From Harmothoe impar (lineage: Eukaryota > Annelida > Polychaeta > Phyllodocida > Polynoidae), in NCBI GenBank assembly GCA_947462335.1, contig OX381710.1, forward strand, positions 26,567,772 to 26,631,771: a DNA stretch of 64,000 bases, read 5' to 3'. Positions 13,454 through 64,000 of the stretch are shown here, piece after piece (positions within the stretch are counted from its first letter, which is position 1; each line of letters starts with the position of its first letter). The notes beneath the pieces are model-generated. The model was not told the DNA's origin, ran no database searches, and saw only the letters and a program-made list of their open reading frames with translations. Position numbers and translations under genes: made by a program.

Positions 13454-13917
13454 AGTAGTATTGTATGTATCGGAACGGGACTATAGTTAAGTACTGTTTA
13501 TTACTCAATCGACCTGCAGCCAATCAGAGGCCTCCATTTGGTCACGTGACCGGAAGTGACCTACTTAGGGGATTAGTGGTGACGTCACGTGACCTAGTTA
13601 GCCAATCAGAGGCCGCCATTTGGTCACGTGACCGTAAGTGACGTCATATGACCTACTTATGGACCGGAAGTGACGTCATATGACCTACTTAGGGGACCGG
13701 AAGTGACGTCATATGACCTAATTTAGGATCACGTGACCGGAAGTGACCTGATGAGTCACGTGACCGGAAGTGACGTCACATGACCTAATGGCCAACCGGA
13801 AGTGAGTGACCTCATTGAGGATCACGTGACCGGAAGTGACCTGATTGATCACGTGACCGGAAGAAGAAGTGACGTCACGCGACTTAATGAAGAGATGAGC
13901 GTCTTTAAGGGGTCACG
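13454..13917. repeat. Left terminal inverted repeat of element 1 with promoter-motif array
   Basis: After the terminal 75 bp come at least seven copies of CCGGAAGTGA, most preceded by TCACGTGA and many followed by CGTCA, giving composite units such as TCACGTGACCGGAAGTGACG. GCCAATCAGAGGCC occurs twice. These are the consensus sites for E-box/USF-TFE, ETS/GABP, CREB/ATF and NF-Y in animals. Element 2's left end (55065-55500) carries the same array with a slightly different unit order. Confidence 0.85.
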
Positions 13918-13943
13918 CGCTTTAAAATGTGATATCTTTTTTT

Positions 13944-14300
13944 TTGGAGGAGGAGGAGGAGGAGGAGGAGGAGGAGGAGAAGGAGAGGAGGAGGAGGCGA
14001 GTCTCTTATTTTTTTCGGTAAACTAATAAAAAACACTACGATATAAGTTTGTTTTTTTTTTTCATTTTTTATTGTTTTACGAGCGACTGGAAGTGACTTA
14101 TTGAACTAGGTAGAAGCGTTCTTTAGAGTGTATAAGGGGGGGGAGGGAAGGGGAGGGGAGGGGAGGGGAGGGAAGGGGAGGGGGGCCCCTTTAAGATGCA
14201 TGGGGAGGGGGGCGCTTTTAGGATGCATGGGGCGGGTGGGGGGAGGGGGGAGGGGGGAGGGGGGCACTCTAGGGGGGTGGGGGGGCACTCTAAGGGGCGT
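13944..14300. repeat. G-rich block: (GGA)n tract followed by G4-like runs
   Basis: A (GGA)n tract at about 13946-13998 is followed at 14126-14299 by dozens of G4-G7 runs separated by single A or short spacers, interrupted by two GATGCATGGGG units and two GGGGCACTCTA units. The strand asymmetry is extreme and the tract is conserved in element 2 (C-rich on + at 63646-63812 and 63937-63985). It lies only at one end of each element. It should be able to form G-quadruplex structures, which is inference. Confidence 0.75.
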
Positions 14301-14343
14301 TTGTCTCTTTTAAGAAAAAAAGAAAAGAAAAAGATTTCAATCG

Positions 14344-14385
14344 AGAGACACGCTTCTTCCTCTCGAGAGGAAGAAGCGTGTCTCT
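14344..14385. repeat. Perfect 42-bp palindrome
   Basis: The half-site GAGACACGCTTCTTCCTCTC is followed directly by its exact complement, with one further matching base on each side and no spacer; the centre is CTCGAG. The same palindrome is preserved without change at 63555-63596 in element 2, next to the same G-rich block. Exact conservation amid otherwise diverged noncoding sequence suggests a constrained function such as a hairpin origin, resolution site or structured RNA. Confidence 0.9.
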
Positions 14386-14502
14386 TCGTTTTTTTTTGTT
14401 TAGGAAGTGAGGGTCTTTAAGATCACGCGACTGGAAGCGACTTGATGAAGCATGTGACTAGAAGTGACGACGTCACATGCTTTAATGAGGCGATCAGCTG
14501 TG

Positions 14503-14620
14503 ACTGGCGGCGGCGGCGGTGGCGGCGGCGGTGGTGCTGGTGGTGGTGGTAGTATACGTTACTGTGGTCAGAGTTGATATGGTTTTTTTCCAACAGAAAT
14601 CAGAGCTTTTATACAGAGGG
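14503..14620 (-). promoter_or_regulatory. Orphan promoter and 5' UTR of the deleted death-domain gene
   Basis: On the - strand a TATAAAA box (14607-14613) is followed by an initiator-like CAGAGC/TTCTGTTGG region and a (CCG)n leader. The same arrangement drives the death-domain gene of element 2 (TATAAAA at 62539-62545, (CCG)n to 62652). Here the coding sequence is missing: the CGG-repeat leader joins directly to terminal-repeat sequence near 14503, so roughly 850 bp has been deleted relative to element 2. Confidence 0.7.
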
Positions 14621-15000
14621 AGTTTAATCCTATTTCCAACAGCACCCCAGCTGTCTAGCAGCTGCTCCGCTCCTTAAGAGCTTCTTAAGAGCTTAGATGA
14701 CGAGGGGTATGTCATCGCCATCTGTGGAAGCCAGCTGAAAATGGTGTTTTTTCCTTATCAATAGCTTTACCTCCTACCCCCTACCTGAGGACGACTCTCT
14801 CCCCCTTTGGCATTCATTGTAACAAACGTCAGAGGTCAGGTGAAAATCGGATTTTCATGCACAGCCTTAGTCAGCTGTCACCCCTATTAAACTAGCCGGC
14901 ATGCTTTAAGTCTTTTTGTTTCTCTTTGTGAATGGCCGCTGGTCAGCCGGCGGCAGCTGAACAGAGCCGTAAGTAGCTTAGCTCTAGAAGCGAGAAGGAG

Positions 15001-15007
15001 TATATAA
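15001..15007 (+). promoter_or_regulatory. TATA box of the element 1 fusion gene
   Basis: TATATAA lies 66 bp before the ATG, followed by an initiator-like CACTCACTCAGTC about 30 bp downstream. The same promoter with TATATAAG precedes the PC4-like gene of element 2 (61659-61665, - strand). The first 180 bp upstream are shared as well. Confidence 0.8.
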
Positions 15008-15066
15008 GGGGGCTGGAAACACCCATTCACTCACTCAGTCTTTTGCTGCTCTCTACAGTCACCACC

Positions 15067-15362
15067 ATGAGCAAAACACAACAACTAGTGTCGTCCAAGG
15101 ATCTAATCGAATTCAAGAACAAGAAGAGTACGCAGAACGGTGATCGTTTAGCGTCAGCGTCTCCTCTTGCTACTGAAATTGAGACTACCGCCGCAACCGC
15201 TTGGTCTTATCACCCTCCCGCTGTAGCGAGCGCACGCAGCAGTAGTAGTGGTAGTAGTAGTCGTCGTGGTAGCGACGTTGTTACACTCGCGACGGTTGTT
15301 ACTGCTAAGCACGCTGCTGCTGCTGCTACTGCTGCGCCTGCTGCGGCTGCTGGTGATCTTCG

Positions 15363-15393
<31 letters not shown>

Positions 15394-16572
15394 GCTGCGC
15401 CTGCTACTGCTGCGCCTGCTACTGCTGCGCCTGCTGAGGCTGCTGCGCCTGCTGCTGCTGTGCCTGCTACTGCTGCGCCTGCTACTGCTGCACCTGCTGC
15501 TGCTGCTGCTGCTGCTACACCTCTTGCTGCGACTGCCGCTACTAGTACTGACACGCAGCACGTTGCACAGAACCTCTCCACCGCTACATCAACCGACGCC
15601 ATCAACGCCGCTCGCGCTGAGACTTACAGCTATTCGGACACTCAGCCCCAGCAGCGCGTAGTAGACATACATGCCCTAAAGCAACAGGGTGAGACAGAGA
15701 ACGACGCTGACGACGAAGCGTACGAGGAACCCGAAGGGCTACGGGCGCACAGTCCGTTTTTCGACCTCATTTCCACTGGTAGCGCGTCCGGTCCGTGGCG
15801 ACTGCCCTCACCACCACCTTACGAAGTCGTGTGGTTGCCCTGTTCCGACAACGAGTCGTCGGATACCAGCGCAGACGCTGCTCCTGTTATTGGTTCTGCT
15901 GCAGTAGTACCTGTATCATCATACTTCAAAGCAGAGCCGTTAGGATACTTGTCAGACGCTATGCTACTGAAAATAAGTAGTAAGTTGCCGACATCAGATT
16001 ACATACGGTTAGGTTCATACCTTGAAGTGAACTTGAAGGATATGGGATATCTCAGTTGTGAGACAAGTGTCATAACTCAAGCTAGAGAAATGTTCACTAC
16101 TTGGTACCAGAAAAGTTGTACTACTAAGTGGAAGGACCTAGCCGCCGCCTTGGAAGAATCTTACCGTATGGACCTCATCAAATTCTCACGTGAGTACATG
16201 GACAAGCATGACATGTGGGATGGCTTAGAGAGTGGAGACATGGAGTGGAAAGTGCAGAAATATTTCTCTCTTTTAGCTGAGCTCTGCCCTAGAGACTGGA
16301 AGACCATAGGGATCTACTTAGGGTTGACTTCTCATGAAATAGCTTTCATCTCTCAACCTGTGCCTTCTGACAGGACTGTGAAGAACCCTGTCTATGAAGT
16401 GCTGAGAGCTTGGAAGTACAACGAGACGTCTGAGCCTATGGCTCTGATGAAAGTGTTGCAAGACGACATGGGTCGCAGCGACGTCGCAATGTATGTTCAA
16501 GGGTTGTATGCAGCTGTACCCAAAGACATAAAAGTGAGCTGTGACACTCCAGTGTTGACCACTCTTGTCTGA
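15067..16572 (+). CDS. Fusion protein: Ala/Ser-rich low-complexity region plus tandem death domains
   Basis: 501 residues from the Kozak-like CACCACCATG at 15067. Residues 1-55 (MSKTQQLVSS start) and the following Ser- and Ala-rich region to about 285 match the N-terminal half of the element 2 protein at 60004-61599, including EPEGLRAHSPF and GPWRLPSPPPYE. From about residue 290 the sequence is unrelated to that protein and instead encodes two death domains: one at about 291-372 (LLKISSKLPTSDYIRLGSYL, with WKDLAAALEE) and one at about 391-478 (WKVQKYFSLLAELCPRDWK, VYEVLRAWK, LMKVLQDDMGRSDVAMYV). Death domains are six-helix adaptor modules of apoptosis and Toll/IL-1 signalling. The reading frame is intact although the neighbouring polymerase gene is ruined, which hints at selection or recent acquisition. 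Death-domain assignment is by pattern (conserved W, L-DD-G-SDVA) and not by search. Confidence 0.75.
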
Positions 16573-16740
16573 TCCCTGCAGTAAGATGGTCATCTGTTGA
16601 ATTCGATCCTAGACTACAGTCACCTTTCACAATGCTAATAGTATCGTGTGGTAAGAGGTGTCTAGTATTCGAAGTGATAAATAACGTTTTATTTTTTTTA
16701 ATAATTGGTAAATAAGTGAAAAAACAAAAAAAAGAAAAAC

Positions 16741-18636
16741 ATGACGCAGGACGTTTGCAAAAAGTGTTTCAAAATTTTTAAAAGACCGTACAATCACGAG
16801 TGACCCGTAGAAAAATGAAGAACAATACCTAAGTTTTGCCCTCTATGCGGCGATGTCGATTGCTGAAAAGATCACCTGTCGACGCGAATCTCTGGACGAG
16901 GTGACTATCCCTCCACGTACATGCGCTGTACCGAACGGTGAGGAAACGTTCACGGCGAATTGGCCTGCAATACGAACGAGTGTCAGGATGCACGGGACTC
17001 GCGTGAGTGTAACAAACGTCAAACTACCAACCGGCGAGTTGAGTGACGCTGTAGATACTATGCGTCGCAATCCGCTTCACACAATGATAAAAAGTGGGTT
17101 TCTCGGTAAGCTTACTCTTACAACACAGAGAAGACAAGAACATACTGCGCTACTTTCACGTCTCCCAGAACAACGCAACTCCCAGAACAAAGCAACTCCC
17201 AGAACAACCGCTCCCTACTATAACTAATTCAGAAACTTTGGAAGAGCTCCTCTCAAAGATGGAAAACACCGTCGCTTGCGAGGAAGTACGGAAACTTTGC
17301 GACGCTGACACCAAGCGGTGCGCTCTTTTTCCTACTAATTTTGAACATTTGCGTTTACATGGGACCTGGAGGTTTTCCCATAGGCGGTAGGAACAGGCAG
17401 GACGGTCGAGTTGGAAAGAGAAGCCTTGTGTTAGATTTTCCCAACAAGGACAACCTCTGCGTCTTCCGCCACATTTCCTTTCACTTATACAACACCAGCA
17501 AGCGCGCTTCAAATTTGTTACGTCAGTTCTGTCCCGCTGCCACACGTGAAACTTTTCCTCCCGACGGACATTCCAGAATCTACCCTTACAACATTACCTT
17601 CGATTTCGAGGCTTTCTTCAGACCGTGCAGAGAACCGTCGACTGAACACGTGTCCCTGCTGTGGGATCACGTCCCTTTGTCGGCTAGCGTCGCATCCGAC
17701 TTTCCGGGGTAGGAGGGGACGGTGTACGTCAGAGAATCCGACGCAGATTCCGACCCCTTGTTAGACCGAGTTTAAAATCACATAAACGAGAACGCCAAAG
17801 TCATCGAGAAAGCTGTGCTATAACTTTACCGACCAACATTAGCGAAGTTACATGTGGCGATAGGTGAAGCTCTCCTGCTGGAGGAAGCGACATTCACCCC
17901 TTCTCCAGGCGGCTTCGCTGCAGCTCACACCAAACAACCGTTAGTTCAACTGAAGAAGTAGCTTCTGAGATACATCCGTCAAGCTCCAGTCGTGAGCTTC
18001 AACACGGAGCGTTACGACTTGAACCTGATCAAAAATACGCCTTCACTCGTTCTTTGCCTCCGGAGACCGAAGAAACCAACAATTCAGCGTCATAAAGAGA
18101 AGCAATCAATACTTGACGGTTTACACACAGTTTTCTTGGACATAGTAGTCAACTATTTGGCACTTGGTTACAGCTACGCGAATTATTTGCGAGCTTTCAC
18201 CAGAAACGAAGATAAAAGTCGCTTTCCTTACGAATGGATGACGTATACCAAGAAACTGGTAAACAGAACCCTGCCACCGAGATCGGCTTTTGACAGCGAA
18301 CTGACGGGCGTCAAAATGGCCGAAATCCGACTACGCCACATGTCAGAAAGTTTAGTACAAGAAGATGCAAACTATGAGAGATTACTTGATCCACTACAAC
18401 AACGAAGACGTCAAACTTTTCATAGAAGCTTTTGAAAAAATCACGCTAATTTTTTCCAAGATCGCAGCATTGTCATGTTGAAAGACGAGATCTCTCTCGC
18501 CAGTTTGACTTTACAGGTCCTCTTCCAAAACCTATAAGCTGTGTTCACAACGTTCCCTCCCTTCGACGCCGTCCTCCACGCTCTGATCAAAGAAAATCTA
18601 GTCGGTGGTCCTTCCATCATCTTCCATAGATTTCAC
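16741..18636 (+). pseudogene. DNA polymerase B pseudogene, N-terminal and exonuclease part
   Basis: Starting with ATG at 16741 the sequence tracks the first 750 or so residues of the element 2 polymerase but is broken by frameshifts and many stops; the first stop follows KRPYNHE. Recognisable blocks in several frames are the CKKCFKIFKRPYNH zinc finger, NKDNLCVFRHISFHLYN, the exonuclease I region ITFDFEAFF, an exonuclease II remnant around SFNTERYDLNLIK, and HYNNEDVKLFIEAF-like exonuclease III. Homology stops abruptly near 18636, before polymerase motif A. It cannot encode a functional protein. Confidence 0.85.
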
Positions 18637-18828
18637 GAGAAGGAGTGTATAGGTGTCTTATAAGTCGGCAGAGGGTGAATACTAGTGAAAAGGGAAGGCA
18701 GGTGTGCAAGTAGCTTTTCTAACAGACACGTGTGTGAACTAAGCTGCTTAAGTCTAAACCCACCTGCGGTAGAAGCTCTGTACTGAGAGAGTCTTTTCAG
18801 CCGTTTAAGAGGCTTATCTAGGACAGGG

Positions 18829-18836
18829 TACATAAG
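18829..18836 (+). promoter_or_regulatory. Possible TATA-like element of the cargo gene
   Basis: TACATAAG lies about 100 bp before the ATG at 18928 and is followed by an initiator-like CTCACCAGTC, similar in spacing to the other promoters of these elements (TATATAAG then CACTCACTCAGTC). This is a weak, position-based call. Confidence 0.35.
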
Positions 18837-18927
18837 GAGTGAAACGCCGCTCTCACCAGTCACACTTTCTCCACCCGCCCTTCATCTTCGTAGCATCGTC
18901 CACTCTACGCCCGCTCAGCACGTTACG

Positions 18928-19779
18928 ATGATTAGTTCTGCTATTTTCTTTATTTATGAAAGTGTTGACGCTACAGAGCATCGAAACCCTCTCGAAATGA
19001 GTCCAAGAAAGAAAAAGCAACTCCCACTTGAAGCAAGAAGAGAAACAGTGCCCTATGATGCATGTGAGGTAAAGAAACATTGGAAGGACGTCACCAAGGA
19101 GCAATGGATAGAAGCATGCTTCAACTTCATCGGAACAGTAGTTTCATTTGGACAGAGGGAGAAGATTTTGTTAGAGCTATTTTTCTTAGCTCCGTATACT
19201 TGGCCTGACTGTGGTGAAATTCCTTCAAGTTTGTCAGTCTTCGCCATACAAGTTATCAACTCCTTGAAGGAGCTTCGATATATGCAAGGCACTCAGGAGG
19301 AGATTGTCAAGAAAATGACGGAATTCGAAACAGGCGAAGACACAATATGGTGCGAGGAGACGACATATGCGGACGATGATCTGGAGTCCATCATTTGTAG
19401 CCCGTTGGAACATTATGTTTAAGACTTTGAGGACATGCTAGACAGCACTGAGATGAACCCGAAAGAGAGATCCCTTACTGCACAGAAAGAGGCCAAAGCT
19501 GTGTTGGAAAAGCACAAGTTTGGTCAAGGATTCACTCTTCAAAGCAGCTGTGTGAGTGTGATAAAAAGTCTTGTGTTGAAACATTCAGACATGAAGTTTT
19601 CGCGTGCTGTCGACACACTTCCTTTGCCTGAACTGATGATGAACATGATCGACCCCATCGTACCAACACGTTTCGACTCTGCCAATTGTCCCATGTATAA
19701 AATGGTTTCAAGTTTTGCCCGTGGCCGATGGCTAAACGATCCACTGAAGTCAGAAAACCTCCTTGATTTAATCAACTGA
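18928..19779 (+). pseudogene. Unknown cargo gene with one in-frame stop (284 codons)
   Basis: A single reading frame runs from ATG 18928 to 19779, interrupted only by TAA at 19420-19422; the downstream part is in the same frame. The first part has NPLEMSPRKKKQLPLEARR, KKHWKDVTKEQWIEACFNF and LELFFLAPYTWPDCGEIP; the second has SLTAQKEAKAVLEKHKFGQG and VDTLPLPELMMNMIDP. It is mostly helical-looking, with Trp-rich amphipathic segments and no membrane helix. I do not recognise the family. It occupies the place where the polymerase palm should be. It may be a captured gene or a diverged regulatory protein. The single stop could be recent decay or a sequencing error. Confidence 0.5.
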
Positions 19780-19835
19780 CTAAATGTATTTTCTCATACT
19801 AGTATTAGTAGCATTAGTAATAGCGGCTACTCAGT

Positions 19836-20172
19836 CTCGTGCAGCACAAGCAGCAGCATCTGTCAGCAGCATCCGTGACATCGTCAGCAGCAGCTGCACA
19901 AGCAGCACAAGCAGCCACATCTGTCAACAGTATCCGTGACATCGTCAGCAGCTGCAGCAGCTGCACGAGCAGCGCAAGCAGCCCAAGCAGTAGCATCTGT
20001 CAGCAGAATCCGTGACAACGTCAGCAGCCGCAGCAGCGGCTGCACGCGCAGCACAAGCAGCAGCATCTGTCAACAGCATCCGTGACAGCGTCAGCAACTA
20101 CAGCAGCTGCAGCTGTCAGCAGCTGCAACAGCTGCACGAGCTGCACAAGCAGCAGCAGCAGCAGCAGCGGTA
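19836..20172. repeat. CAG-rich minisatellite, about four units of 60-75 bp
   Basis: Each unit contains GCAGCACAAGCAGC, then CATCTGTCAGCAGCATCCG, then TGACATCGTCAGCAGC, with small length changes between copies. It ends in a (CAG)n run at about 20149-20168. It follows the cargo gene and has no long open frame on the + strand without stops. The codon content resembles the Ala/Ser-rich segments of the element proteins, but coding potential here is not supported. Confidence 0.7.
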
Positions 20173-20189
20173 GTGTAGACCGCTAAATT

Positions 20190-20449
20190 CGAGATGACGT
20201 CATGTCTGTTTCTTAGCATCGACATTCGACATGAGACCTAGTGACATTTGACATGAAGCTTGAAAAACATAGTGACAGGTGACATGAGCAATTCTTAAAA
20301 TCGCCATGAGATATGAGCATAATTAAGCGACATCGACATGTGCCATGGCTATTTTTTTTTAAGACAAACGCCGTAGTCTCCTCATCCAGACCTCCGCTAG
20401 TAGCGCTCTATAAGCGCAAGCTGTGGCTGTGAACCCCCTCCTCCCACCG
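20190..20449. other. Noncoding segment of element 1 with GTGACAT..GACATGA repeats
   Basis: Short imperfect repeats of the form GACATTCGACATGAGA, GTGACATTTGACATGA and GTGACAGGTGACATGA occur at about 20219-20300. No gene is seen. The segment has no counterpart in element 2. Confidence 0.4.
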
Positions 20450-20850
20450 TACACACGGGTAAATATCAGAGTCGGCCAATGTCGCCAATACTACTCTCAT
20501 ACAAGGGTCAGGACTATAATAGATGAGTCAAGGACTATTCTACTGAGGGTCAGGCTACGCCGGACATTCAATAACAAGCTGGACTTTGGCAAATTTGCTT
20601 GAAAGTCTGGCCAGCAAGAGTCCAGCATACTCTCCCAAGAGTTCAGCATTGCCAGACTATGGCATGAGGATCCCGCATGGTCAGACTTTCAAGCAAGTTT
20701 GCCAAACTCCGGCTTGTTATTGAATGTCCGGCGTAGCCTGACCCTCACTAGAATAGCCCTTGACCCATCTATTATAGTCCAGCAGTGCCTGACCTTTGTC
20801 TGAGAGTAGAATTAGCGCTATTGGGTGCCTCTGATATTTGCCTCTGTGTA
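20450..20850. repeat. Foldback element abutting the polymerase remnant
   Basis: Left arm 20450-20612 and right arm 20679-20850 are inverted copies: left starts TACACACGGGTAAATATCAG, complement of the right starts TACACAGAGGCAAATATCAG, and both continue through GGACTATAATAGATG, GTCAAG, GAGGGTCAGGCTACGCCGGA and CATTCAATAACAAGC. The 66-bp spacer contains smaller repeats of CCAGCA. Its right edge meets the first base homologous to the polymerase gene (TAGTCAAACC). Confidence 0.85.
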
Positions 20851-21382
20851 GTCAAACCTCGCCTGAGAGAGACATACTTCAGAAAGAAACGAAAGCGGAT
20901 TCCGACATCGGTGTGTGACGATCACTTAGAGCTTTTCGTGAAGATAAAAACGGAAAAAAAGTGTGAAAATGGTGTCCGCCGCCCGGCGGATGTTGTGAAA
21001 GACGTTACCTTCACGATCTGAGAACTTCGGAGCTTATGAAAGCGGCGTGAGAAGGTGACGGGATCCTAAGTCTCAACCCTAAGACTTACATTTGCTACGA
21101 TCGAGTCAGCGGCACCGGTGAAAGAAAATCCCAAAAAAAAAGATAGCGTGCAAAAAGTGTACAGAAGTAACAAAACCCTAAAGAACCAGTCGTCTTCTTA
21201 GATGTTTTCGAAAACGAAAAACTCTCCTTGCGGTAAATAGAAATTTCAAAGTGGTACGAACCAAAAATGGACACTTACACCATAGAGAAAGATGACGTGC
21301 GCTACTTGTATTATAAGCGTCGCGTGCATTCTAACGGTGTGACAACGAGTCCTTTAAAATATGAAAAAAAAGTGTGTTATTG
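20849..21382 (+). pseudogene. DNA polymerase B pseudogene, C-terminal end
   Basis: Homology to the element 2 polymerase restarts at VKPRLRETYFRKKRKRIPTS, just after the position of catalytic motif C, and runs to the C-terminus (YTIEKDDVRYLYYKRRVHS). A frameshift lies near 20960-21000 and others follow. The NPKTYICYD-like lysine motif block is present around 21080. All three polymerase catalytic motifs are missing from element 1. Confidence 0.85.
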
Positions 21383-21519
21383 ATTGATTGAGCGCATCTT
21401 TTCAAAAATAGCGTGTTTATTAGAATTGAAAAAAATAAAATAAAAAAATAAATAAAATTATTGTTGTGTTTTATTTTCATACGTCTTCTTTTATTAGTAA
21501 GTAAAAAAAATTATAACAA

Positions 21520-22101
21520 TTAACTAGCGTGTCCTCTTAAAGTGACACTTCCTCCGGTCGCTGCTGATCGCCTAATTAAGGCATGTGTCGTCGTCACTTC
21601 TAGTCACGTGACTCATCAGGTCGCTTCCGGTCACGTGATCCTAAAGTCGATCACTTCCTAAACAAAATTAAATTAAGAGACACATTTCTTCATGACCCAA
21701 CCAATCAGAGGTCTCCATTTGACCAGAAGTAGTCCCCTCATTTGCATAATGGGTCACTTCCGGTGTACCAGCCAATCAGAAGCCTCTAACTAAGTCAAGG
21801 TCACGTGACGTCACTTCCGGTATGCCCTTATATGGACATGTGAAGGTCACATGACGTCACTTCCGGTATGCCCTTATATGGGCGTGTGACGTCACTTCCG
21901 GTCAAATGGAAGCCTCTGATTGGCTGAGTCATGACCTTGACCTCTAACTAGGTCAAGATCACGTGACGTCACTTCCGGTATGCCCTTATATGGGCATGTG
22001 ACGTCACTTCCGGTCAAATGGAGGCTTCTGATTGGCTGCAGGTCGATTGAGTAATAAACAGTAGTTAACTATAGTCCCGTTCCGATACATACTATACTAC
22101 T
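21520..22101. repeat. Right terminal inverted repeat of element 1 with promoter-motif array
   Basis: Read as the complement from 22101, the end matches the left end for about 75 bp, then continues as an array of CCGGAAGTGACGTCA units (at least six), interspersed with CATATAAGGGCATA units and CCAATCAGAGG. The order differs from the left end, so the arrays have been reshuffled or separately amplified. There is no G-rich block or palindrome at this end. Confidence 0.85.
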
Positions 22102-22107
22102 ACCGTT
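22102..22107. repeat. Target site duplication of element 1, right copy (ACCGTT)
   Basis: It is identical to 13448-13453. On the - strand it encodes part of the Asn-Gly codons of the interrupted reverse transcriptase, and the frame continues across it. Confidence 0.9.
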
Positions 22108-55064: not shown

Positions 55065-55560
55065 AGTAGTATAGTATGTATCGGAACGGGACTATAGTTA
55101 AGTACTGTTTATTACTCAATCGACATGCAGCCAATCAGAGGCCTCCATTTGGTCACGTGACCGGAAGTGACCTACTTAGGGGATTAGTGGTGCATTCTGG
55201 GTAACCCTGCAGCCAATCAGAGGCCACCATTTGGTCACGTGACCGGAAGTGACCTACTTAGGGGATTAGTGGTGCATTCTGGGTAACCTACTGACCTACT
55301 TAGGGGACCGGAAGTGACGTCATATGACCTAATTTAGGATCACGTGACCGGAAGTGACCTGATGAGTCACGTGAGCGGAAGTGACGTCACATGACCTAAT
55401 GGCCGACCGGAAGTGAGTGACCTCATTGAGGATCACGTGACCGGAAGTGACCTGATTGATCACGTGAGCGGAAGAAGAAGTTTTTTGTTTAGGAAGTGAG
55501 GGTCTTTAGGATCACGTGACTGGAAGCGACGTCGTCACATGAGTGACGCTTTAAGAGACT
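55065..55560. repeat. Left terminal inverted repeat of element 2 with promoter-motif array
   Basis: The terminal 75 bp are nearly identical to both ends of element 1. Then come two CCAATCAGAGGCC units, a twice-repeated GGTGCATTCTGGGTAACC block, and at least seven CCGGAAGTGA (or GCGGAAGTGA) units, mostly next to TCACGTGA and sometimes TGACGTCA. It ends where the polymerase 3' flank begins. Confidence 0.88.
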
Positions 55561-55611
55561 GCGCGACTTACTAGTAAAAGAAGACGTATGAAAATAAAAA
55601 CACAACAATAT

Positions 55612-55617
55612 TTTATT
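55612..55617 (-). terminator. Polyadenylation signal of the polymerase gene
   Basis: TTTATT on + (AATAAA on -) lies about 80 bp past the polymerase stop in an AT-rich stretch, with further copies to 55634. The same AT-rich 3' flank is kept in element 1 (21415-21470). Confidence 0.55.
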
Positions 55618-55697
55618 TTATTTTTTTTATTTATTTTTTTTTCAATCTTGATAAACACTCTATTTTTGAAAAGATGCACACGCTTATTTTTTTTTTT

Positions 55698-57341
55698 TCA
55701 TATCTCTAAAGGACTCGTTGTCACACCGTCAGAATGCACGCGACGCTTATAATACAAGTAGCGCACGCCGTCTTTCTCTATGGTGTAGGTGACCATTTTG
55801 TTTCGCACCACTTTGAAGTTTCTATTTACAGCAATGAGAGTTTTTCGTTGGCGAAGAACATCCAAGAAGTCGTCTGGTTCCTGAGGGTTTTGTTTCTTCT
55901 GTACGCCTTTTGCACTCCATTTTTTGGATTTTCTTTCACCGGTGTCGCTGACTCGATCGTAGCAAATGTAAGTCTTAGGGTTGAGACTTAGGATCCCGTC
56001 ACCTTCCCACTCCGCTTTCATAAGCCCCGAAGTTCTCAGATCGTGAAGGTACCGTCTCTCACAACATCCGCCGGGCGGCGGACACCATTCTCGCACTCTT
56101 TCCGTTTTTGTCTTCACGAAAAGCTCTAAGTGATCGTCGCACACCGCTGTCGGAAGCCACTTTCGTTTCTCTCTGAAGTACGTCTCTCTCAGGCGAGGTT
56201 TGACTAGGTCATCCAACGTGTCACCGCTGAGAGCCATGTAAAGACTGTCGGTGTCCATTTGACAAAGGGCATAATCGCGCCGATCGACGAATCTATCCAA
56301 GAAGTCGTATGTGAACTCTAACATTTTCAACTTCGCGTACTGGTATACCATGAACCCTATTTGAATAGGGAGGTTGTTGTTGACTGTTTTCGGTTGTAGT
56401 TCGACTTCAAACAGATCGGAACTCAACTCGGACGCCTTTTTGAAGCTCCACGAATTGGCCAATAGTTCGAACTTCCGACTGTCAGTGTATCTCACCGCCG
56501 TGTGTTTTTCTTTGTTGCAGATTGTTTTACCGTACGTAGCGTTTCCCATTAACTTGTAACAGTCTGACAGAATTTTCTCGTTCTCGTTCACATCGCCACG
56601 TCTTCGCGCCGCCGTTACTTCGTCCGCGAAACCGGCAAAGGAGCGTTTAGGTAGGTATTCTACCACCAGCTGCACTTTGGTGACTATCAAACCGTGCTCT
56701 AAATACCACTTGAGAAGCGGCGTTCCCAAGAGAATATTTTTTCCGTGGTAACTCCCTATCAGACATCTCTGAGGCGTGTTCAACAGCTTTTCTTCCTGCG
56801 CAAAGTCTGACATGTGAGGTCCTATGTCCGATTTTGAAACGGTCGCGTTCTTGAAAACGGGGGTCATTTCTTCGAAGTAGTCTCGTAGGTGAGGCGGCGT
56901 AGTGATGTCCACTTGAACTAAACCGAACATTTTCTCCTCTTTCACAGCGGAAAGGATGTCGCTCTCGCTCATCGCGTTTCGAGACACTTTCAAAGCGTCA
57001 ACCTTCCAGCGTTGTTGGGAGGCCTTGACCCGCTCATCTCGACGCTTCATCTCTCGCCATTCGCACTCCCACACGACGACCAGCTTGTGACCTAGCGCTT
57101 TCAAGTAAGCGCTTACTCTGGTCGTTCTGTCGCGTCTCTCCTCTCTCAGTGAAGCGCACTGATATCGGTGCGACGGTATGCACTCGTGAGCGTGGAACCA
57201 ACACCCGTGAAACTGGAAAACCGTATTAGAGGCCGCGTGAACCCGTCCACGCGAATTCTCCGACAGCCTACAACCATCTCGCCGCCGTTCAAAGCGTGGC
57301 GCAGTTTCACGTCGCGGTCGTGCTCTACGAAGCGTAACCAC
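55698..57341 (-). CDS. Family B DNA polymerase, C-terminal part (palm and thumb)
   Basis: This open frame holds the second half of the polymerase. It continues from the upstream frame after a one-base shift near 57231-57240; the in-frame start at 57341 is not an ATG and is unlikely to be used. Seen in order: VFQFHGCWFHAHECI (a block known in protein-primed polymerases), KLMGNATYGKTICN near residue 265 (motif B), CQMDTDSLYMAL near 363 (motif C, catalytic Asp pair) and NPKTYICYD near 455 (lysine motif). The gene stops with TTSPLEI. Polymerases of this type copy linear DNA from a protein primer at its ends. All residues expected for catalysis are visible across the two frames. The frameshift may be real inactivation, sequencing error or recoding. 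Confidence 0.85.
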   Translation of the reverse strand: MVTLRRARPRRETAPRFERRRDGCRLSENSRGRVHAASNTVFQFHGCWFHAHECIPSHRYQCASLREERRDRTTRVSAYLKALGHKLVVVWECEWREMKRRDERVKASQQRWKVDALKVSRNAMSESDILSAVKEEKMFGLVQVDITTPPHLRDYFEEMTPVFKNATVSKSDIGPHMSDFAQEEKLLNTPQRCLIGSYHGKNILLGTPLLKWYLEHGLIVTKVQLVVEYLPKRSFAGFADEVTAARRRGDVNENEKILSDCYKLMGNATYGKTICNKEKHTAVRYTDSRKFELLANSWSFKKASELSSDLFEVELQPKTVNNNLPIQIGFMVYQYAKLKMLEFTYDFLDRFVDRRDYALCQMDTDSLYMALSGDTLDDLVKPRLRETYFREKRKWLPTAVCDDHLELFVKTKTERVREWCPPPGGCCERRYLHDLRTSGLMKAEWEGDGILSLNPKTYICYDRVSDTGERKSKKWSAKGVQKKQNPQEPDDFLDVLRQRKTLIAVNRNFKVVRNKMVTYTIEKDGVRYLYYKRRVHSDGVTTSPLEI

Positions 57342-59821
57342 TCCAAAGCGCTGTGAGAGTTTCTTTGCCTAATTTCGGGCTTGAACTCGGTCTCGGGCCG
57401 TCTCACCGCGTAATAGCCCGTGCAGTGCGCTTCGCTCATGCAGCGCAAGTACAGAGAGTTAGCGTCTAGTCCTAGGATGTGTTGGCACGGTCTCGCTTCT
57501 TCGCCGTACTTGTGCTCCCTTATCCGCGTGGTGCCCTTCTCGTGAAATCTATGGAAGATGATGGAAGGACCGCCGACTAGATTTTCTTTGATCAGAGCGT
57601 GGAGGACGGCGTCGAACTGGGGGAACGTTGTGAACGCGTCTTCTAGGTTTTGGAAGAGGAACCGTAAAGTCAAACCGGCGAGAGAAACTCCGTCTTTCAA
57701 CATGTCAATGCCGCGATCTTGGAAAAATTTAGCGTGATTTTTCAGAGCTTCTATGAAAGGTTTGACGTCTTTGTTGTTGTAGTGGATCAAGTAGTCTTCC
57801 ATAGTTTGCATCTTCTCGTCGGACCAAACTTTCTGACATGCGGCGTAGTCGGATTCGGACATTTTGACGCCCTTCAGCTCGCTGTCGAAAGCCGATCTCG
57901 GTGGCAGCGTTCTGTTTGCCAGTTTCCTGGTAGACGTCATCCATTCGTAAGGAAAGTGACCTTTCTCTTCGTTCCTGGTGAAAGCTCGCAAATAGGTCGC
58001 GTAGTTGTAACCGGGTGCCAAATAGTTGACTACGTCCAAGAAAACCGTGTGCTGTGTGTAAACCGCCAAGTATTGATTGCTTCTCTTTATGACGCTGAAT
58101 TCTTGGTTTCTTCGGTCTCCGGAGGCGAAGAACGAGTGAAGGCGTATTTTGATCAGGTTCAAGTCGTAACGCCCCGAGTTGAAGCCCACGACTGGAGCTT
58201 GACGGATGTATCTCAGAAGACGCTTCTTCAGTTGAACTAACGGGTGTCTGGTCTGAGCCGCAGCGAAGCCGCCTGGAGAAGGGGTGAACGTCGCCTCCTC
58301 CAGCAGGAGAGCTTCACCTATCGCCGCATCTAACTTCGCTAAGGTCGGTCGGTAAAGTTCTAGCACAGCTTCCCCGATGACTTTGGCGTTCTCGTTTATG
58401 TGATTTAAAACTCGGTCCAACAAGGGGTCGGAATCTGCGTCGGATTCTCTGACGAAGCAGATGGGCCCCTCCCACCCCGGAAAGTCGGATGCGACGCTAG
58501 CCGACAAAGGGACGTGATCCCACAGCAGGGACACGTGTTCCGTCGACGGTTCTTTGCACGGTCTGAAGAAAGCCTCGAAATCGAAGGCGATCTTGTAAGG
58601 GTAGATTCCGGAATGTCCATCGGGGGGAAAAATGGAGAAGTCTGCTAGCGCTTCGAAAATCGTTCTCGAATTTTGGTAGATGCCACCTACGTAGCGCAAC
58701 TTGACTTGTCGGCAAGAGGAAAGCTGGTTCCTGTGTCTCTTCAGCAAGAACTCGGTGGTGAACGCCGCCTTACACTTGCAACATTTGTATATGCCCGCGT
58801 ACGCGTTGAAGTCCGTGACGAGAGAGACGTGCAAACCGCCTTTCGCCGTCAGGTGTAGGTTGACTTTACCTCGGGCGGCCAGAGTTCTGGAAGGCGGTCT
58901 GATCAGAGTAACGCGTCTTCTCAACTTCCGCCCCGGCACTTGACGCGACGCGGTGTAAACCGCTATTTGTACGTCAAACAAGTTCTCTAACGCGGGTAAG
59001 TCGCGGATGTTCAGACCCGGAAAGGATTCAGGTGTGGCAGCGGGACAGAACTGACGTAACAAATCTGAAGCGCGCTTGCTGGTGTTGTATAAGTGAAAGG
59101 AAATGCAGCGGAAGATGCAGAGGTTGTCCTTGTTGGGAAAATCTAACACGCCGCTTCTCTTTCCAACTCGACCGGCCTGAGTGATCCTACCGCCTATGGG
59201 GAATTCCCCCGGTCCCATGTAAACGCAAATGTTCAAATTGGTAGGAAAAAGAACGTGCCACTTGGTGTCAGCGTCGCGAAGTTTCCGTACTTCCTCGCAA
59301 GCGACGGTGTTTTCCATCTTTGAGAGGAGCTCTTCCAAAGTTTCTGAATTAGTTATAGTAGGGAGCGGTTGTATGAGAGTTGCGTTGTTCTGGGAGGCGT
59401 GAAAGTAGCGCAGTTTGCTCTTGTCTTCTCTGTGTTGTAAGAGTAAGCCTACCGAGAAACCCACTTTGTATCTGAATCTTTGTGTCAAGTGAATGCGACG
59501 CATAGTATCTACAGCGTCACTCAACTCGCCGGTTGGTAGCCTGAAGTTTGTTACACTCACGCGAGTCCCGTGCATCCTGACGCCCGTTTGTATCGCAGGC
59601 CAATTCGCCGTGAACGTTTCCTCCCCGTTCGGTACAGCACATATGCGCGGAGGGACGGTCACCCCGTCCAGAGATTCGCGTCGACAGGCGATCTTTCGGC
59701 AATCGCCTTCGCCGCATAGAGGGCAAAACTTAGGTACTACTCTACAATTTTCTACGTGTCTCTCGTGGTTGTACGGTCTTTTAAACATTTTGAAACACTT
59801 TTCGCATACGTACTGTGTCAT
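57146..59821 (-). CDS. Family B DNA polymerase, N-terminal part (zinc fingers, exonuclease, start of palm)
   Basis: Start taken at the ATG at 59821 (MTQYVCEKC); four codons upstream the frame is open but lacks an ATG. It begins with a CxxC-HxxxH finger and CPLCGEGDC, then DNLCIFRCISFHLYNT near residue 240, a second finger (CCKCKAAFTTEFLLKRH) near 350, exonuclease motif I (IAFDFEAFF) near 412, exonuclease motif II (GFNSGRYDLNLI) near 547, exonuclease motif III (YNNKDVKPF) near 680, and polymerase motif A (LGLDANSLYL) near 783. After RIRVDGFT the frame runs on for about 28 unrelated residues to a stop at 57146. Zn-finger N-termini are common in Polinton and adintovirus polymerases. It is the only replication enzyme in the element. 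Confidence 0.88.
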   Translation of the reverse strand: MTQYVCEKCFKMFKRPYNHERHVENCRVVPKFCPLCGEGDCRKIACRRESLDGVTVPPRICAVPNGEETFTANWPAIQTGVRMHGTRVSVTNFRLPTGELSDAVDTMRRIHLTQRFRYKVGFSVGLLLQHREDKSKLRYFHASQNNATLIQPLPTITNSETLEELLSKMENTVACEEVRKLRDADTKWHVLFPTNLNICVYMGPGEFPIGGRITQAGRVGKRSGVLDFPNKDNLCIFRCISFHLYNTSKRASDLLRQFCPAATPESFPGLNIRDLPALENLFDVQIAVYTASRQVPGRKLRRRVTLIRPPSRTLAARGKVNLHLTAKGGLHVSLVTDFNAYAGIYKCCKCKAAFTTEFLLKRHRNQLSSCRQVKLRYVGGIYQNSRTIFEALADFSIFPPDGHSGIYPYKIAFDFEAFFRPCKEPSTEHVSLLWDHVPLSASVASDFPGWEGPICFVRESDADSDPLLDRVLNHINENAKVIGEAVLELYRPTLAKLDAAIGEALLLEEATFTPSPGGFAAAQTRHPLVQLKKRLLRYIRQAPVVGFNSGRYDLNLIKIRLHSFFASGDRRNQEFSVIKRSNQYLAVYTQHTVFLDVVNYLAPGYNYATYLRAFTRNEEKGHFPYEWMTSTRKLANRTLPPRSAFDSELKGVKMSESDYAACQKVWSDEKMQTMEDYLIHYNNKDVKPFIEALKNHAKFFQDRGIDMLKDGVSLAGLTLRFLFQNLEDAFTTFPQFDAVLHALIKENLVGGPSIIFHRFHEKGTTRIREHKYGEEARPCQHILGLDANSLYLRCMSEAHCTGYYAVRRPETEFKPEIRQRNSHSALEWLRFVEHDRDVKLRHALNGGEMVVGCRRIRVDGFTRPLIRFSSFTGVGSTLTSAYRRTDISALH
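57231..57240 (-). other. Frameshift position in the polymerase gene
   Basis: Conserved sequence switches reading frame here: the upstream frame is family-like up to the VDGF block and the downstream frame from the HGCWFH block. The shift equals one missing base (or two extra). No slippery heptamer with a clear pseudoknot is obvious. Confidence 0.75.
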
Positions 59822-60003
59822 GTTTTTTTTCACTCAGTTACCAACTACTTAGCCGTCTAACTATCTATCTATCTATCAATCTATCTGTCTATCTATCTAT
59901 CTATTTATCTTTCTGTCTGCTGTCTGTGTATCCGTCTGTCTGTCTCATACAGCGTACGTCAAACGCTGTGTGTGTGTGTGCGCGCGTGAGCGTTGAGCGT
60001 CTC
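59822..60003. repeat. Microsatellite-bearing spacer between polymerase and PC4-like genes
   Basis: It contains a (TATC)n-like run at about 59863-59915, CTGT-rich repeats and a (TG)n run at 59969-59978. The spacer in element 1 (16573-16740) is unrelated, as expected if the preceding gene's 3' end was exchanged. It must hold the polymerase promoter unless the two genes share a transcript. Confidence 0.6.
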
Positions 60004-61142
60004 TCATTCCGAATCTATGCCGAGATATTTCAGAATGATCTCTGTTTTGTCATCCAACTCTTTGAGCGCTCTGGCGGACAGCGTCACTCCCTGCTGTGTG
60101 GGTTTTTTGTCAGGACCTTCGTACTTGCGCACGTGGACGAGGTTCTTACCGCTGTAGTAGCTCACAGCTGCGTACACTTCGCCCTCCTCATCCAGCACTG
60201 CGAACCAGGGGGTGTGATTAGGTCTTCCTTGCGCGGCCGCTGTGTCGCGTATGCGCACCACTGCGCGGATATCGGCGATGCGTGCTATTAGCTCGCGCAG
60301 CGCGTCGGCCGTGAAGTGCACTCGCTTGCTTCTGGTCAGAGACGCCTCTTTCACCTGGCCGTCTTTTGTGTAGCGCGGCCTCCTAGACAGTCTAGCCACG
60401 TCCTCCCAGATCTCCAGCGTCAAAGCTCCGTCTAAGCAGAACTCTAACCCGAGAAGACGGGAGAAGGTTTTCTCTGCTTCTTCTCGTCCATCTCGTTCTT
60501 TTTCTTGTATTTTTCTCTTCTTACTAGGCCTTGTTGTTCTGGAACTCACCTTAGAACGTTTCACACCCGCAGGATGAGTAACACCATCAGCGTGAGCTGA
60601 ATCAGCAGCAGAACCGATAGCAGGAGCAGCGTCAGCGCTGGTGGTATCCGAGGCCTCGTTGTTGGAACAGAGCAGCCACACGCCGTCGGTGCTGAGTGTA
60701 GCGGTAGAAGATGAAGCGCCGCCGCCCTCGTAAGGTGGCGGTGAGGGCAGTCGCCACGGACCGGACGGGGCGCTACTAGTGGAAGTGAGGTCGAAAGGTC
60801 GAAGAGGGGAGCCGAAAAACGTACCGCCCACCCCTTTCCCTTCGGGTTCTTCGTACGCCTCGTCGTCAGCGTCGTTCTCTGTCTCATCCTGTTGCTGCTG
60901 CTCCTCCTCCTCCTCCTCTTCTTCTCGGTTTAGGGGCTGAGTGTCCGAATAGCTGTCACTCTCAGCGCGAGCGGCGTCGAGGGCGTCGGTCGATGTAGTG
61001 GTGGAGGAGAGGGGCTGTGCAACGTGCGGCAGGTAATCAAAGTCATCAACAGTAGTGGGGAGGTAAAAACCCGGTTGCCAGTACTGCGCTGTGCCAGGAG
61101 CGTTGTCGTCAGTAGTAGTAGCGGTAGCAGCAGGTGCAGCAG

Positions 61143-61188
<46 letters not shown>

Positions 61189-61599
61189 CGCAGCAGCAGC
61201 AGACGCAACAGTAGCAGGCGCAGCAGCCTCAGCAGGCGCAGCCGTAGCAGCCGCAGCCCGAGGATCACCAGCAGGCGGGGCGGCAGTAGCAGCGGCAGCG
61301 CGCTTAGCAGCAACGTGTACCGTCGCGAGTGTAACAACGTCGCTAGCACGACGACTACTACCAGTAGTACTACTACCACTACTACTACTACTACTACTAC
61401 TAGTACTACTACTGCTACTACTACTGCTACTACTACTACTACTGCCGCGAGCGCTCGCTACAGCGGGAGGGTGATAAGACCAAGCGGCTGCGGCGGTAGT
61501 CTCATTTTCAGTAGCAAGAGGAGGCACTGACGCTAAACGAGCGCTGTTCCGCGTAGTCTTCTTGTTCTTGGACGGCGCTAGGTGTTGTCTTTTGCTCAT
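60004..61599 (-). CDS. Low-complexity protein with C-terminal tandem PC4-like ssDNA-binding module
   Basis: 531 residues from ATG at 61599 in a good Kozak context (CACCACCATGAG). The N-terminal half is Ser/Ala-rich with long (GCN)n alanine runs and an acidic EEEEEEEEQQQQ tract; then PSKKRKIQEK, a likely nuclear signal. The last 150 residues are globular: ARLSRRPRYTKDGQ ... KRVHFTADALRELIARIADI near 423-445, and again VHVRKYEGPDKKPTQQGVTL then SARALKELDDKTEIIL near 487-523. Both resemble the PC4/Sub1 pattern (basic strand, G-V-L, then a helix with L--L---I-), a fold that binds single-stranded DNA. A role as replication SSB beside the polymerase is an inference. In element 1 this C-terminal module is replaced by death domains. 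Confidence 0.65.
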
Positions 61600-61658
61600 G
61601 GTGGTGACTGTAGAGAGCAGCAAAAGAATGAGTGAGTGAATGGAGGTTTCCAGGCCCC

Positions 61659-61665
61659 TTATATA
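61659..61665 (-). promoter_or_regulatory. TATA box of the PC4-like gene
   Basis: TATATAAG on the - strand, 60 bp before the ATG, with an initiator-like CACTCACTCATTC downstream. It is conserved in element 1 (15001-15007). Confidence 0.8.
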
Positions 61666-61681
61666 CGCCTTCTCGCTTCTA

Positions 61682-62042
61682 GAGCTAAGCTACTTACTGA
61701 CCCTGTTCAGCTGCCGCCGGCTGGCCGGCGGCCATTCACAAAGAGAAACAAAAGACATAAGGCATGACGTTTTCAGCTGGATCCCTTTCCCCCCTTTTGA
61801 GAGATCGACTGTCATGAGCTAAGCCGCTTACCACCCTGTTCAGCAATTCAATGCGCATTAGCTGTATAAAGGATTAAGCGGTTGCTGCCGTCGACTGACC
61901 GGCGGCCATTCACAAAGACATAAGGTATGACGTTTTCAGCTGGATCCCTTTCCCCTCTTTTTTTTGAGGTATCCACTGTCATGAGCTAAGCCACTTACCA
62001 CCCTGTTCAGCAATTCAGCGCGCGTTAGCTGTATAAAGGATT
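61682..62042. repeat. Duplicated control region between the divergent genes
   Basis: A unit of roughly 135-165 bp recurs: GAGCTAAGC..CTTAC, CCCTGTTCAGC, GGCGGCCATTCACAAAG, CATAAGG.ATGACGTTTTCAG and CTGGATCCCTTTCCCC. Starts fall near 61682, 61814 and 61980 (the last partial). ATGACGTTTTC resembles a half CRE. Element 1 has only one unit (about 14880-14990), so the duplication is specific to this copy or was lost there. Confidence 0.7.
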
Positions 62043-62538
62043 AACGGTGATGAGCTTAGAGTGTGTATACAAAAAAAACTACAGGAGGCGTGTGGCGTGA
62101 AGCAGGACCCCCCTAAGACGAACGTGTCTGTCTGTGAGTAGAGGCGTGTGCATGTGGTGAGCGACTTAAGTGTAAGACAAAAAAAAATCACCACCTCCTG
62201 CCGTGGTGAGTAGACCGGGCCGGCCAGGCGGCGGCCGGCTAGTTCAATAGGGAGGGGTGACAGCTGACTAAGGCTGTGCATGAAAAAAATCCGATTTTCA
62301 CCTGACCTCTGACGTTTGTTACAATGAATGTCAGAGGGAGGGAGACGTCCTCAGGTAGGGGGTAGGAGGTAAGGCTATGGATGAGGAAGAAACACCGTTT
62401 TCAGCTGGTCTCCACGGATAGCGATGACATACCCCTCGTCATCTAAGCTCTTAAGGAGCGGAGCGGCTGAAAAAGCGTCATGCGGACAGGTCGCTAGACA
62501 GCTGGAGTGCTGTTGGAAATGGGATTAAACTCCCTCTG

Positions 62539-62545
62539 TATAAAA
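62539..62545 (+). promoter_or_regulatory. TATA box of the tandem death-domain gene
   Basis: TATAAAA lies 127 bp upstream of the ATG, followed by an initiator-like TGATTTCAGTTGG and a long (CCG/CCA)n leader at 62603-62652. Element 1 keeps this promoter (14607-14613, - strand) but not the gene. Confidence 0.75.
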
Positions 62546-62665
62546 GCTCTGATTTCAGTTGGAAAAAAACCATATCGCCTCTGACCACAGTAACGTCTAC
62601 TACCACCACCACCGCCACCACCGCCGCCGCAGCCGCCGCCGCCGCCGCCGCCAAGACGAGACGAG

Positions 62666-63406
62666 ATGGCTCAAGCTATTCCACTTTCAAGCTCGCCTTC
62701 ACCGCCTTGTCCACCTGAAAAAAAGTTAATGCGGCTTGACGACGTGAGACGCGCGAGGCAGACCGATGGGGAGAACAGAGAGGTAGGACAGCGGCGGTTA
62801 GCCTATAGCGACGCCTTGCTTCGTCAACTAGGTAAAGAGTTGAGCGGCTGTTGGAGAGAGTTGGGCAGTAGCTTAAAAGTTACCGCCGCCCGTATGGATG
62901 CTCTAGTAGAGCGCAGTGTCAAGACACCGGAGGAGCTGTGTACGGCGATGTTCCGAGTCTGGTGGGGTGAAACCCCGCATCGTCATAGATGGGGAGAGCT
63001 CGGTCGCGTCTTCACCCGCATTAGACGCGTGGAACTGTTGGCTCAGTGGATGTCCCTTCTCCACAGACAGGGGTTGGATTTCGAAAACCCCGACTCGCGC
63101 GCCATGCATAAGCACTTGGGCACCCTCGGCAGACGTCTAGGTAGCAGGTGGAAAGAGGTGGGGGACCATTTAAAATTGTCGCCTGAGAGGTTAGATAAGA
63201 TCGCTGAAGAATGCGAATACGGAGGAAGTCCCGCTGAGTGGGCCTTCCGAGTGTTGAAAATGTGGCAAGATGAAGCTGACGGTGCCGGCGGTACACCTTT
63301 TGAACTCCTTCGAGTGTTGACTGAGGACATGGGAAAGTTTGACCTCGGCATCGCGATATTACTTGACTTTATCAAGCAAGAAACAACGAGAACGACGGAC
63401 ATGTGA
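62666..63406 (+). CDS. Tandem death-domain protein
   Basis: 246 residues from ATG 62666. A short Ser/Pro N-terminus is followed by two death domains: residues about 48-128 (LLRQLGKELSGCWRELGSSL, LCTAMFRVWWGE, WGELGRVFTRIRRVELL) and about 147-235 (LGTLGRRLGSRWKEVGDHLK, WAFRVLKMWQDE, PFELLRVLTEDMGKFDLGIA). Both show the typical helix-1 L--L, the W-xx-LG of helix 2, the M-W of helix 4 and the L---L-----DL of helix 6. There is no catalytic domain, membrane helix or signal peptide, so it should act by binding host death-domain proteins such as those of the TNF-receptor, MyD88 or IRAK type. It is divergent from the other two genes and is intact. Function as an inhibitor or an activator cannot be told from sequence. 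Confidence 0.8.
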   Translation: MAQAIPLSSSPSPPCPPEKKLMRLDDVRRARQTDGENREVGQRRLAYSDALLRQLGKELSGCWRELGSSLKVTAARMDALVERSVKTPEELCTAMFRVWWGETPHRHRWGELGRVFTRIRRVELLAQWMSLLHRQGLDFENPDSRAMHKHLGTLGRRLGSRWKEVGDHLKLSPERLDKIAEECEYGGSPAEWAFRVLKMWQDEADGAGGTPFELLRVLTEDMGKFDLGIAILLDFIKQETTRTTDM

Positions 63407-63540
63407 ATTGTTGTGTTTTATTTTCATACGTCTTCTTTATTAGTAAGTAAAAAAAAATATCATAACAATTAAGACGCGCGCCCTCTTAAAGTGTCACTTC
63501 CTCCAGTCGCAGCTGATCGCCTCATCGAGGCACGTGATAA
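63407..63540. repeat. Inner part of the right terminal repeat of element 2
   Basis: TTTTATTTTCATACGTCTTC followed by TTTATTAGTAAG and GTGTCACTTCCTCC matches the sequence just inside the left end (complement of about 55560-55612) and inside element 1's right end (21458-21560). The death-domain gene therefore ends directly at the terminal repeat. Confidence 0.7.
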
Positions 63541-63554
63541 ACAAAAAAAAATGA

Positions 63555-63596
63555 AGAGACACGCTTCTTCCTCTCGAGAGGAAGAAGCGTGTCTCT
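63555..63596. repeat. Perfect 42-bp palindrome (element 2 copy)
   Basis: Half-site GAGACACGCTTCTTCCTCTC and its exact complement, plus one pairing base on each side; identical to 14344-14385. It lies about 150 bp past the death-domain stop codon, before the first downstream AATAAA (63864-63869), so the transcript of that gene could contain a 21-bp hairpin. Confidence 0.9.
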
Positions 63597-63645
63597 CGAT
63601 TGAAATCTTTTTCTTTTCTTTTTTTCTTAAAAGAGACAAACGCCC

Positions 63646-63985
63646 CTTAGAGTGCCCCCCCACCCCCCTAGAGTGCCCCCCTCCCCCCTCCCCCCCTCCC
63701 CCCCACCCGCCCCATGCATCCTAAAAGCGCCCCCCTCCCCATGCATCTTAAAGGGGCCCCCCCTCCCCTTCCCTCACCTCCCCTCCCCTCCTTCCCCCCC
63801 CTTATACACTCTAAAGAACGCTTCTACCTAGTTCAATAAGTCACTTCCAGTCGCTCGTAAAACAATAAAAAATGAAAAAAAAAAAAAACTTATATCGTAG
63901 TGTTTTTTATTAGTTTACCGAAAAAAATAAGAGACTCGCCTCCTCCTCCTCTCCTTCTCCTCCTCCTCCTCCTCCTCCTCCTCCA
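63646..63985. repeat. C-rich block of element 2 (G-rich on -)
   Basis: Long C runs (63653-63812) with two CCCCATGCATC units, then an AT-rich stretch, then (CTC)n at about 63937-63982. This is the complement of element 1's 13944-14300 block in the same order, so it is an ancestral feature of one terminus. Confidence 0.8.
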
Positions 63986-64000
63986 AAAAATAAGATATCA

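Follow-up and report, generated by a model that had tools for sequence, protein, structure and literature searches.

In this study, we examined a 64,000-bp stretch of the genome of the polynoid annelid Harmothoe impar (GenBank assembly GCA_947462335.1, contig OX381710.1, positions 26,567,772 to 26,631,771; hereafter the window) and relate a mobile element at its right end, element A, to other elements of the same genome that share its termini. The most probable reading is a Maverick (Polinton) with a divided genome, its parts inserted separately as distinct elements, of which A represents the replication half. Elements of A's kind (class 1, 9.4 kb) carry genes for PolB, a family B DNA polymerase, for a PC4-like protein and for a protein with tandem death domains. 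A second kind (class 2, 10.4-10.5 kb) carries genes for an integrase of the rve-chromodomain type, a protease resembling adenain, an ATPase of the packaging type and putative capsid proteins.

A begins at 55065 with AGTAGTATAG, and DNA beyond the window gave the reverse complement of this terminus at L001:476, equivalent to window position 64476. With both termini read directly, A measures 9,412 bp, bearing out the terminus and the size of about 9.4 kb estimated in the original prediction. It carries the end motif AGTAGT//ACTACT. Compared by BLAST, A and a class 2 element are 100% identical over 98 bp at each end, and their interiors have just two patches in common (89 and 190 bp, 76-78% identical), close to A's divergent genes; the region between these genes (61751..62204) resembles L053:3698-3877 of class 2 over 190 bp at 76%. 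Gapped alignment found a weaker likeness (74-76%) over about 200-255 bp of the class 1 and class 2 repeats. With a class 3 element, A has the 98-bp ends alone in common by BLAST, at 98-99%. Positions 55065-55575 contain seven copies of CACGTG (0.11 in single-base shuffles) and six of CCGGAAGT (0.006 in shuffles), and these sites in the repeats are perhaps promoters.

The class 2 element that we read, in two pieces, lies at C1:68948-79375, belongs to the 10.4-kb size class and has the same ends as A. Its frames include one for an rve integrase whose tail resembles a chromodomain, as well as frames for an adenain-like protease and an IVa2/A32-like packaging ATPase. Pfam scores were 50.3 bits for rve (cut-off 32.6), 24.3 for Adeno_IVa2 (cut-off 21), 20.9 for Peptidase_C5, just below its cut-off of 21.3, and 19.7 for Chromo, below 25.1; in PDB the integrase matched retroviral and prototype foamy virus (PFV) integrases as well as chromobox proteins. 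The element gave no PolB match and no match to the window above 120 bp outside one patch, and its ATPase found no relative in IMG/VR. Conversely, the four class 1 open reading frames scanned with Pfam gave no match to rve. Class 2 also encodes proteins of 439 and 384 amino acids (both in L052) and of 147 amino acids, whose sequences resemble Maverick major capsid, penton and basic core proteins, a putative assignment that searches did not confirm. All 96 matches scored keep the 439-amino-acid frame open.

The markers of the two gene sets were found apart. Of the 100 termini listed for the sample, C1:1-4.59 Mb, 92 can be joined in pairs as 46 elements; among the matches listed, 10 of these bear a PolB marker, 10 a putative capsid marker, none both and 26 neither. 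PolB-marker elements measure 9,391-9,747 bp and capsid-marker elements 10,434-10,537 bp. Up to 91.9 Mb on C1, the 100 PolB and 72 capsid positions listed form four pairs no more than 16 kb apart: one is a nested insertion, another consists of adjacent elements, and in the remaining two the markers are separated by 12-15 kb. By these markers, no undivided parent sharing A's ends was recognised among the 46 paired elements, and the sample gave no same-ended copy in which integrase and capsid genes lie among A's frames, which the original prediction had regarded as the sign of a deletion derivative. Origin of A as a single deletion product was rejected, as the PolB-marker elements form a homogeneous family of uniform size and many have open frames. 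The original prediction had further proposed a distinct lineage or miniature form. The homogeneous 9.4-kb family of PolB, PC4-like and death-domain genes without integrase or capsid does exist; it is not a self-contained miniature, however, and integrase and putative capsid genes lie on class 2. At C1:3023564-3043619, a PolB element is inserted inside a capsid-class element.

The element family is large and young. The genome containing the window comprises 1.51 Gb in 736 contigs, and the terminal 28-mer has 5,961 + 5,984 exact matches in it (11,945 together), whereas the control has 0 + 0. Assuming the same pairing of ends as in the sample, this corresponds to about 6,000 elements, which by arithmetic at about 9.6 kb each would occupy roughly 57 Mb (3.8%) of the genome. 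Allowing up to two mismatches, the PolB marker matches at 2,575 sites genome-wide and the putative capsid marker at 1,593; the death-domain marker has 2,072 exact matches. The standard right terminus is present in 28 of 30 class 1 copies fetched. For 20 of the 30 the left part was fetched as well: both ends were located in 16, of which 11 measure 9,392-9,579 bp, and a perfect 6-bp duplication was found in 14. The four copies with an end not found include L032 and L037, which have retrotransposon-like frames by eye, and L033, a chimera described below. Perfect 6-bp duplications also flank 10 of 10 class 2 elements in the sample, the one class 3 element, A, and B, a second element of the window.

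The polymerase of A is, by homology, a family B enzyme. The PolB named in the original prediction is present, though in this copy it is broken into two frames on the minus strand that overlap each other, at 57146-59833 and 55698-57341. The Pfam DNA_pol_B_2 scores of the two pieces (19.0 and 13.8 bits) lie below the cut-off of 25.8, and 55698..57341 has weak PHROG matches to DNA polymerase and endonuclease. The piece at 57146-59833 matches 338 proteins; the nearest, P0004 (1375 amino acids), is 99% identical over the region searched and itself exceeds the DNA_pol_B_2 cut-off at 29.8 bits. Further relatives in public data, at 77%, 65%, about 50% and about 41%, come without genomic context, and IMG/VR scans with the PolB piece and with the PolB alignment returned no relative. 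An open PolB frame of 1368-1383 amino acids is found in 50 of 79 scored genomic matches. Among seven in-register copies (L035 and L040 left out), which differ on average by 0.43% over 1,290 codons, variable codons were synonymous in 26 cases and nonsynonymous in 31, giving a ratio of nonsynonymous to synonymous polymorphism (pN/pS) of 0.33 (p = 1e-4 vs neutral), a result somewhat biased by the choice of open frames. PolB looks maintained. One motif in the PolB alignment would fit the OTU-like N-terminal domain of adintoviruses; domain searches gave no match. A 7,020-bp class 1 copy (L039 with L010) is flanked by a perfect duplication and keeps PolB open over 1378 amino acids; it is about 2.4 kb shorter, the difference lying between PolB and the death-domain gene.

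Tandem death domains, as originally predicted, were recovered by Pfam in two stretches of the frame at 62666-63406 (Death, 31.1 bits; cut-off 22.6). All 150 genomic matches scored (from 3,960 first-look candidates) encode the protein with 100% identity, and in nucleotides 14 forward-oriented loci depart from A at 1-5 of the 738 positions. Its relatives P0002 (79%) and P0003 (55%) lack genomic context, and the structure prediction was uninformative, with a mean predicted local distance difference test score (pLDDT) of 42.6. The death-domain marker occurs in 10/10 PolB elements of the sample, 0/9 capsid elements (the tenth, a nested case, being left out) and 0/26 others, and on C1 its exact form lies 6-8 kb from 82 of the 100 PolB positions listed and within 12 kb of 90. 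Chance capture of one host gene was rejected on the grounds of its presence in all 10 PolB-marker elements of the sample. The protein probably targets host death-domain signalling, with which it might interfere, for example as a decoy. The PC4-like assignment held less well: the C-terminus of the 539-amino-acid frame weakly resembles PC4, and its score of 21.9 bits, under the cut-off of 25, is suggestive only. This frame has one relative, P0124, at 77%.

Besides classes 1 and 2, at least two further classes exist. In addition to the class 3 element read earlier, pieces were fetched from 8 of the 26 marker-less elements. L060 and L061 group with the class 3 element, L058 and L059 carry a class 4 gene also found in element B, and L056 and L057 (99.9% alike) match the class 4 flanks without the class 4 gene; L062 resembles B in a single short match, and L063, from a 15.9-kb element, matches nothing compared. 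A frame of class 3 (L054:756-1856) contains many alanine-rich ALDTYDAA-like repeats and has no Pfam match.

Element B, absent from the original prediction, lies in the same window and is bounded by the target duplication ACCGTT (13448-13453 and 22102-22107). It is a chimera of class 1 and class 4 sequence. Its frame at 15043..16572 is 56% identical to the N-terminus of A's PC4-type frame and scores 48.1 bits for Pfam Death, its death-domain pair being related to A's death-domain protein at 23% over 189 amino acids. As this related pair is fused to a PC4-type N-terminus, the death-domain module seems to be mobile between positions. The class 4 gene of B has no Pfam or PHROG match. L033 is another natural chimera, in which L033:1-1318 equals a class 2 right end (97.8%) and is joined to class 1 sequence. 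These two chimeras indicate that the element classes recombine. Adjoining B, at window positions 12656-13273, a frame looks by eye like a reverse transcriptase fragment, and the window has at 6657-6984 a long near-palindrome that matches its reverse complement at 84% over 322 bp.

Table 1. Features of elements A and B in the window, with coordinates, strand and basis
Feature	Position	Strand	Basis or remark
Element A, class 1, probable replication half	55065..64000, on to window-equivalent 64476		Termini and target duplication read
6-bp target-site duplication of A, TATAGA	55059-55064, again L001:477-482		Perfect, read directly
Outermost 98 bp of A, common to other element classes	55065..55162		BLAST comparison
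Left terminal inverted repeat of A	55065..55481		90% identical to right repeat, about 420 bp
C-terminal part of family B DNA polymerase, severed from N-terminal part	55698..57341	-	Open reading frame; weak matches
N-terminal and exonuclease part of DNA polymerase	57146..59833	-	Open reading frame; relatives search
539-amino-acid frame, low-complexity N-terminus with PSPPPYE motif, PC4-like C-terminus	60004..61623	-	Open reading frame, Pfam
Region between divergent genes of A	61751..62204		1.8-copy 167-bp repeat at 61751-62048
246-amino-acid tandem death-domain protein	62666..63406	+	Pfam Death, two stretches
Element B, rearranged relative of A, opposite orientation, 8,648 bp	13454..22101		Same ends; self-comparison
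B: N-terminus of A's PC4-type frame, then two death domains replacing PC4	15043..16572	+	Pfam
B: polymerase remnant	16731..18643	+	89-91% nucleotide identity to A, frame in pieces
B: class 4 gene, in two frames in this copy	18928..19779	+	One 331-amino-acid stop-free frame in L058

For a Maverick divided in this way, we infer that the classes act in trans. The class 1 PolB would replicate whatever linear DNA bears the common 98-bp ends, the class 2 integrase would insert any DNA with these ends, producing the 6-bp duplication, and capsid proteins, provided that they are made, could enclose either class. Several points weigh against a split genome. The part of the genome typed by content is small, and the gene content of class 2 is that of one element. 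The gene-content markers are exact or near-exact 28-mers among the matches listed and miss diverged copies, so that the 26 of 46 elements without a marker may include such copies. Two elements are longer (13.2 kb at C1:3921647-3934873 and 15.9 kb at C1:4267534-4283441, the latter seen in one 2-kb piece), and the two PolB-capsid pairs 12-15 kb apart leave room for a rare undivided parent. Three of the 20 class 1 loci lack the left end in the stretch fetched and one the right end, L018 has no matching duplication, and in L016 the duplication agrees in 5 of 6 bases. Finally, the putative capsid proteins, so named for a resemblance in sequence, have no Pfam, PDB or IMG/VR match.

A stronger form of the split-genome reading is a true segmented virus, the classes being genome segments, packaged jointly or apart, and the genomic copies endogenised segments. 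The conserved ends with class-specific interiors are what such segments would show, as are the three or more classes and the placement of the capsid (putative), protease and ATPase genes on class 2. Bidnaviruses, which join an adintovirus-type PolB to a segmented genome, can have as many as twelve segments according to PMC11071296; they are defined there by a parvovirus NS1 and capsid, for neither of which the class 1 to 3 open reading frames scanned gave a Pfam match. The copy number by itself fits trans-mobilised transposons equally well, however, and we put the segmented virus at somewhat under an even chance. With the same reserve, it could be described as a segmented, integrating, probable jelly-roll DNA virus from a Maverick lineage, with at least three to four inserted segments, 98-bp ends, trans complementation and a death-domain gene on the polymerase segment. 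Its segments might then serve replication and host signalling, integration and capsid, and, in two or more classes, accessory roles.

DNA transposons commonly have satellites that share nothing but ends with their helper. Classes 1 and 2 could likewise be non-autonomous, either derived or end-captured, with everything supplied by a monopartite Maverick parent that is rare here or is an exogenous virus. Like non-autonomous DNA transposons, they have ends in common with a recombinase-supplying element; the two longer elements and the 26 without markers leave room for such a parent, and chimeras B and L033 attest to recombination among the classes. Yet both markers coincide in 0 of 46 elements, and only four PolB-capsid pairs within 16 kb occur among the listed C1 positions. 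Moreover, each class keeps open frames for functions absent from the other, which is unexpected of passive satellites. We consider a monopartite parent unlikely. That class 1 is a free-standing transposon with an integration route of its own, its end match with class 2 being secondary through end capture, would account for thousands of copies with 6-bp duplications and no integrase match in the four frames scanned, but is very improbable given that these duplications and (AGT)2//(ACT)2 ends are traits of Mavericks with an rve integrase (PMC8097293) and that class 2, with identical 98-bp ends, encodes just such an enzyme.

The family can also be compared with known systems. Vertebrate Mavericks have (AGT)2//(ACT)2 ends, 6-bp duplications and eight core genes per intact copy (PMC8097293). 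The likeness to Mavericks extends to the family B polymerase, the rve integrase, the ATPase and protease types, the inverted repeats, the end motif and the 6-bp duplications. Here, the end motif and inverted repeats are found in both classes 1 and 2; the rve integrase, the ATPase (above cut-off) and the cysteine protease (just below) are on class 2, and the four class 1 frames scanned have no rve match. The difference lies in the division: Mavericks are described with their genes on one element of 15-20 kb (PMC4028283), whereas the genes here are distributed over elements of 9.4 and 10.4-10.5 kb. In adintoviruses, PolB is accompanied by an rve-chromodomain integrase and by a protease and an ATPase of adenovirus type (PMC11071296). 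Here, class 2 encodes an rve integrase with a C-terminal chromodomain (chromodomain below cut-off, with PDB chromobox matches), and the contrast is that an adintovirus is a single genome. Mammal-associated adintoviruses mostly bear anti-apoptotic or oncogene homologues (preprint PMC11071296); a death-domain gene was recognised in no Polinton/Maverick or adintovirus in the literature searched. That literature, which included few subscription papers, likewise yielded no recognised segmented, bipartite, multipartite or trans-complementing Polinton, and the available portions of PMC11071296 and PMC11521997 describe no divided Maverick.

Taken as a split-genome Maverick, this family would be a lineage in which replication is separated from integration and capsid, with only short ends in common and about 6,000 recent copies, as opposed to the undivided Mavericks. 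It offers many natural pieces for the sequence study of trans complementation, end recognition and segment ratios. Linked to the polymerase half, the death-domain gene would bring in a role in host signalling, one not found for Mavericks in the literature searched. If true, the finding would illustrate the route by which a DNA virus turns multipartite and the way in which such a system is maintained in a germ line.
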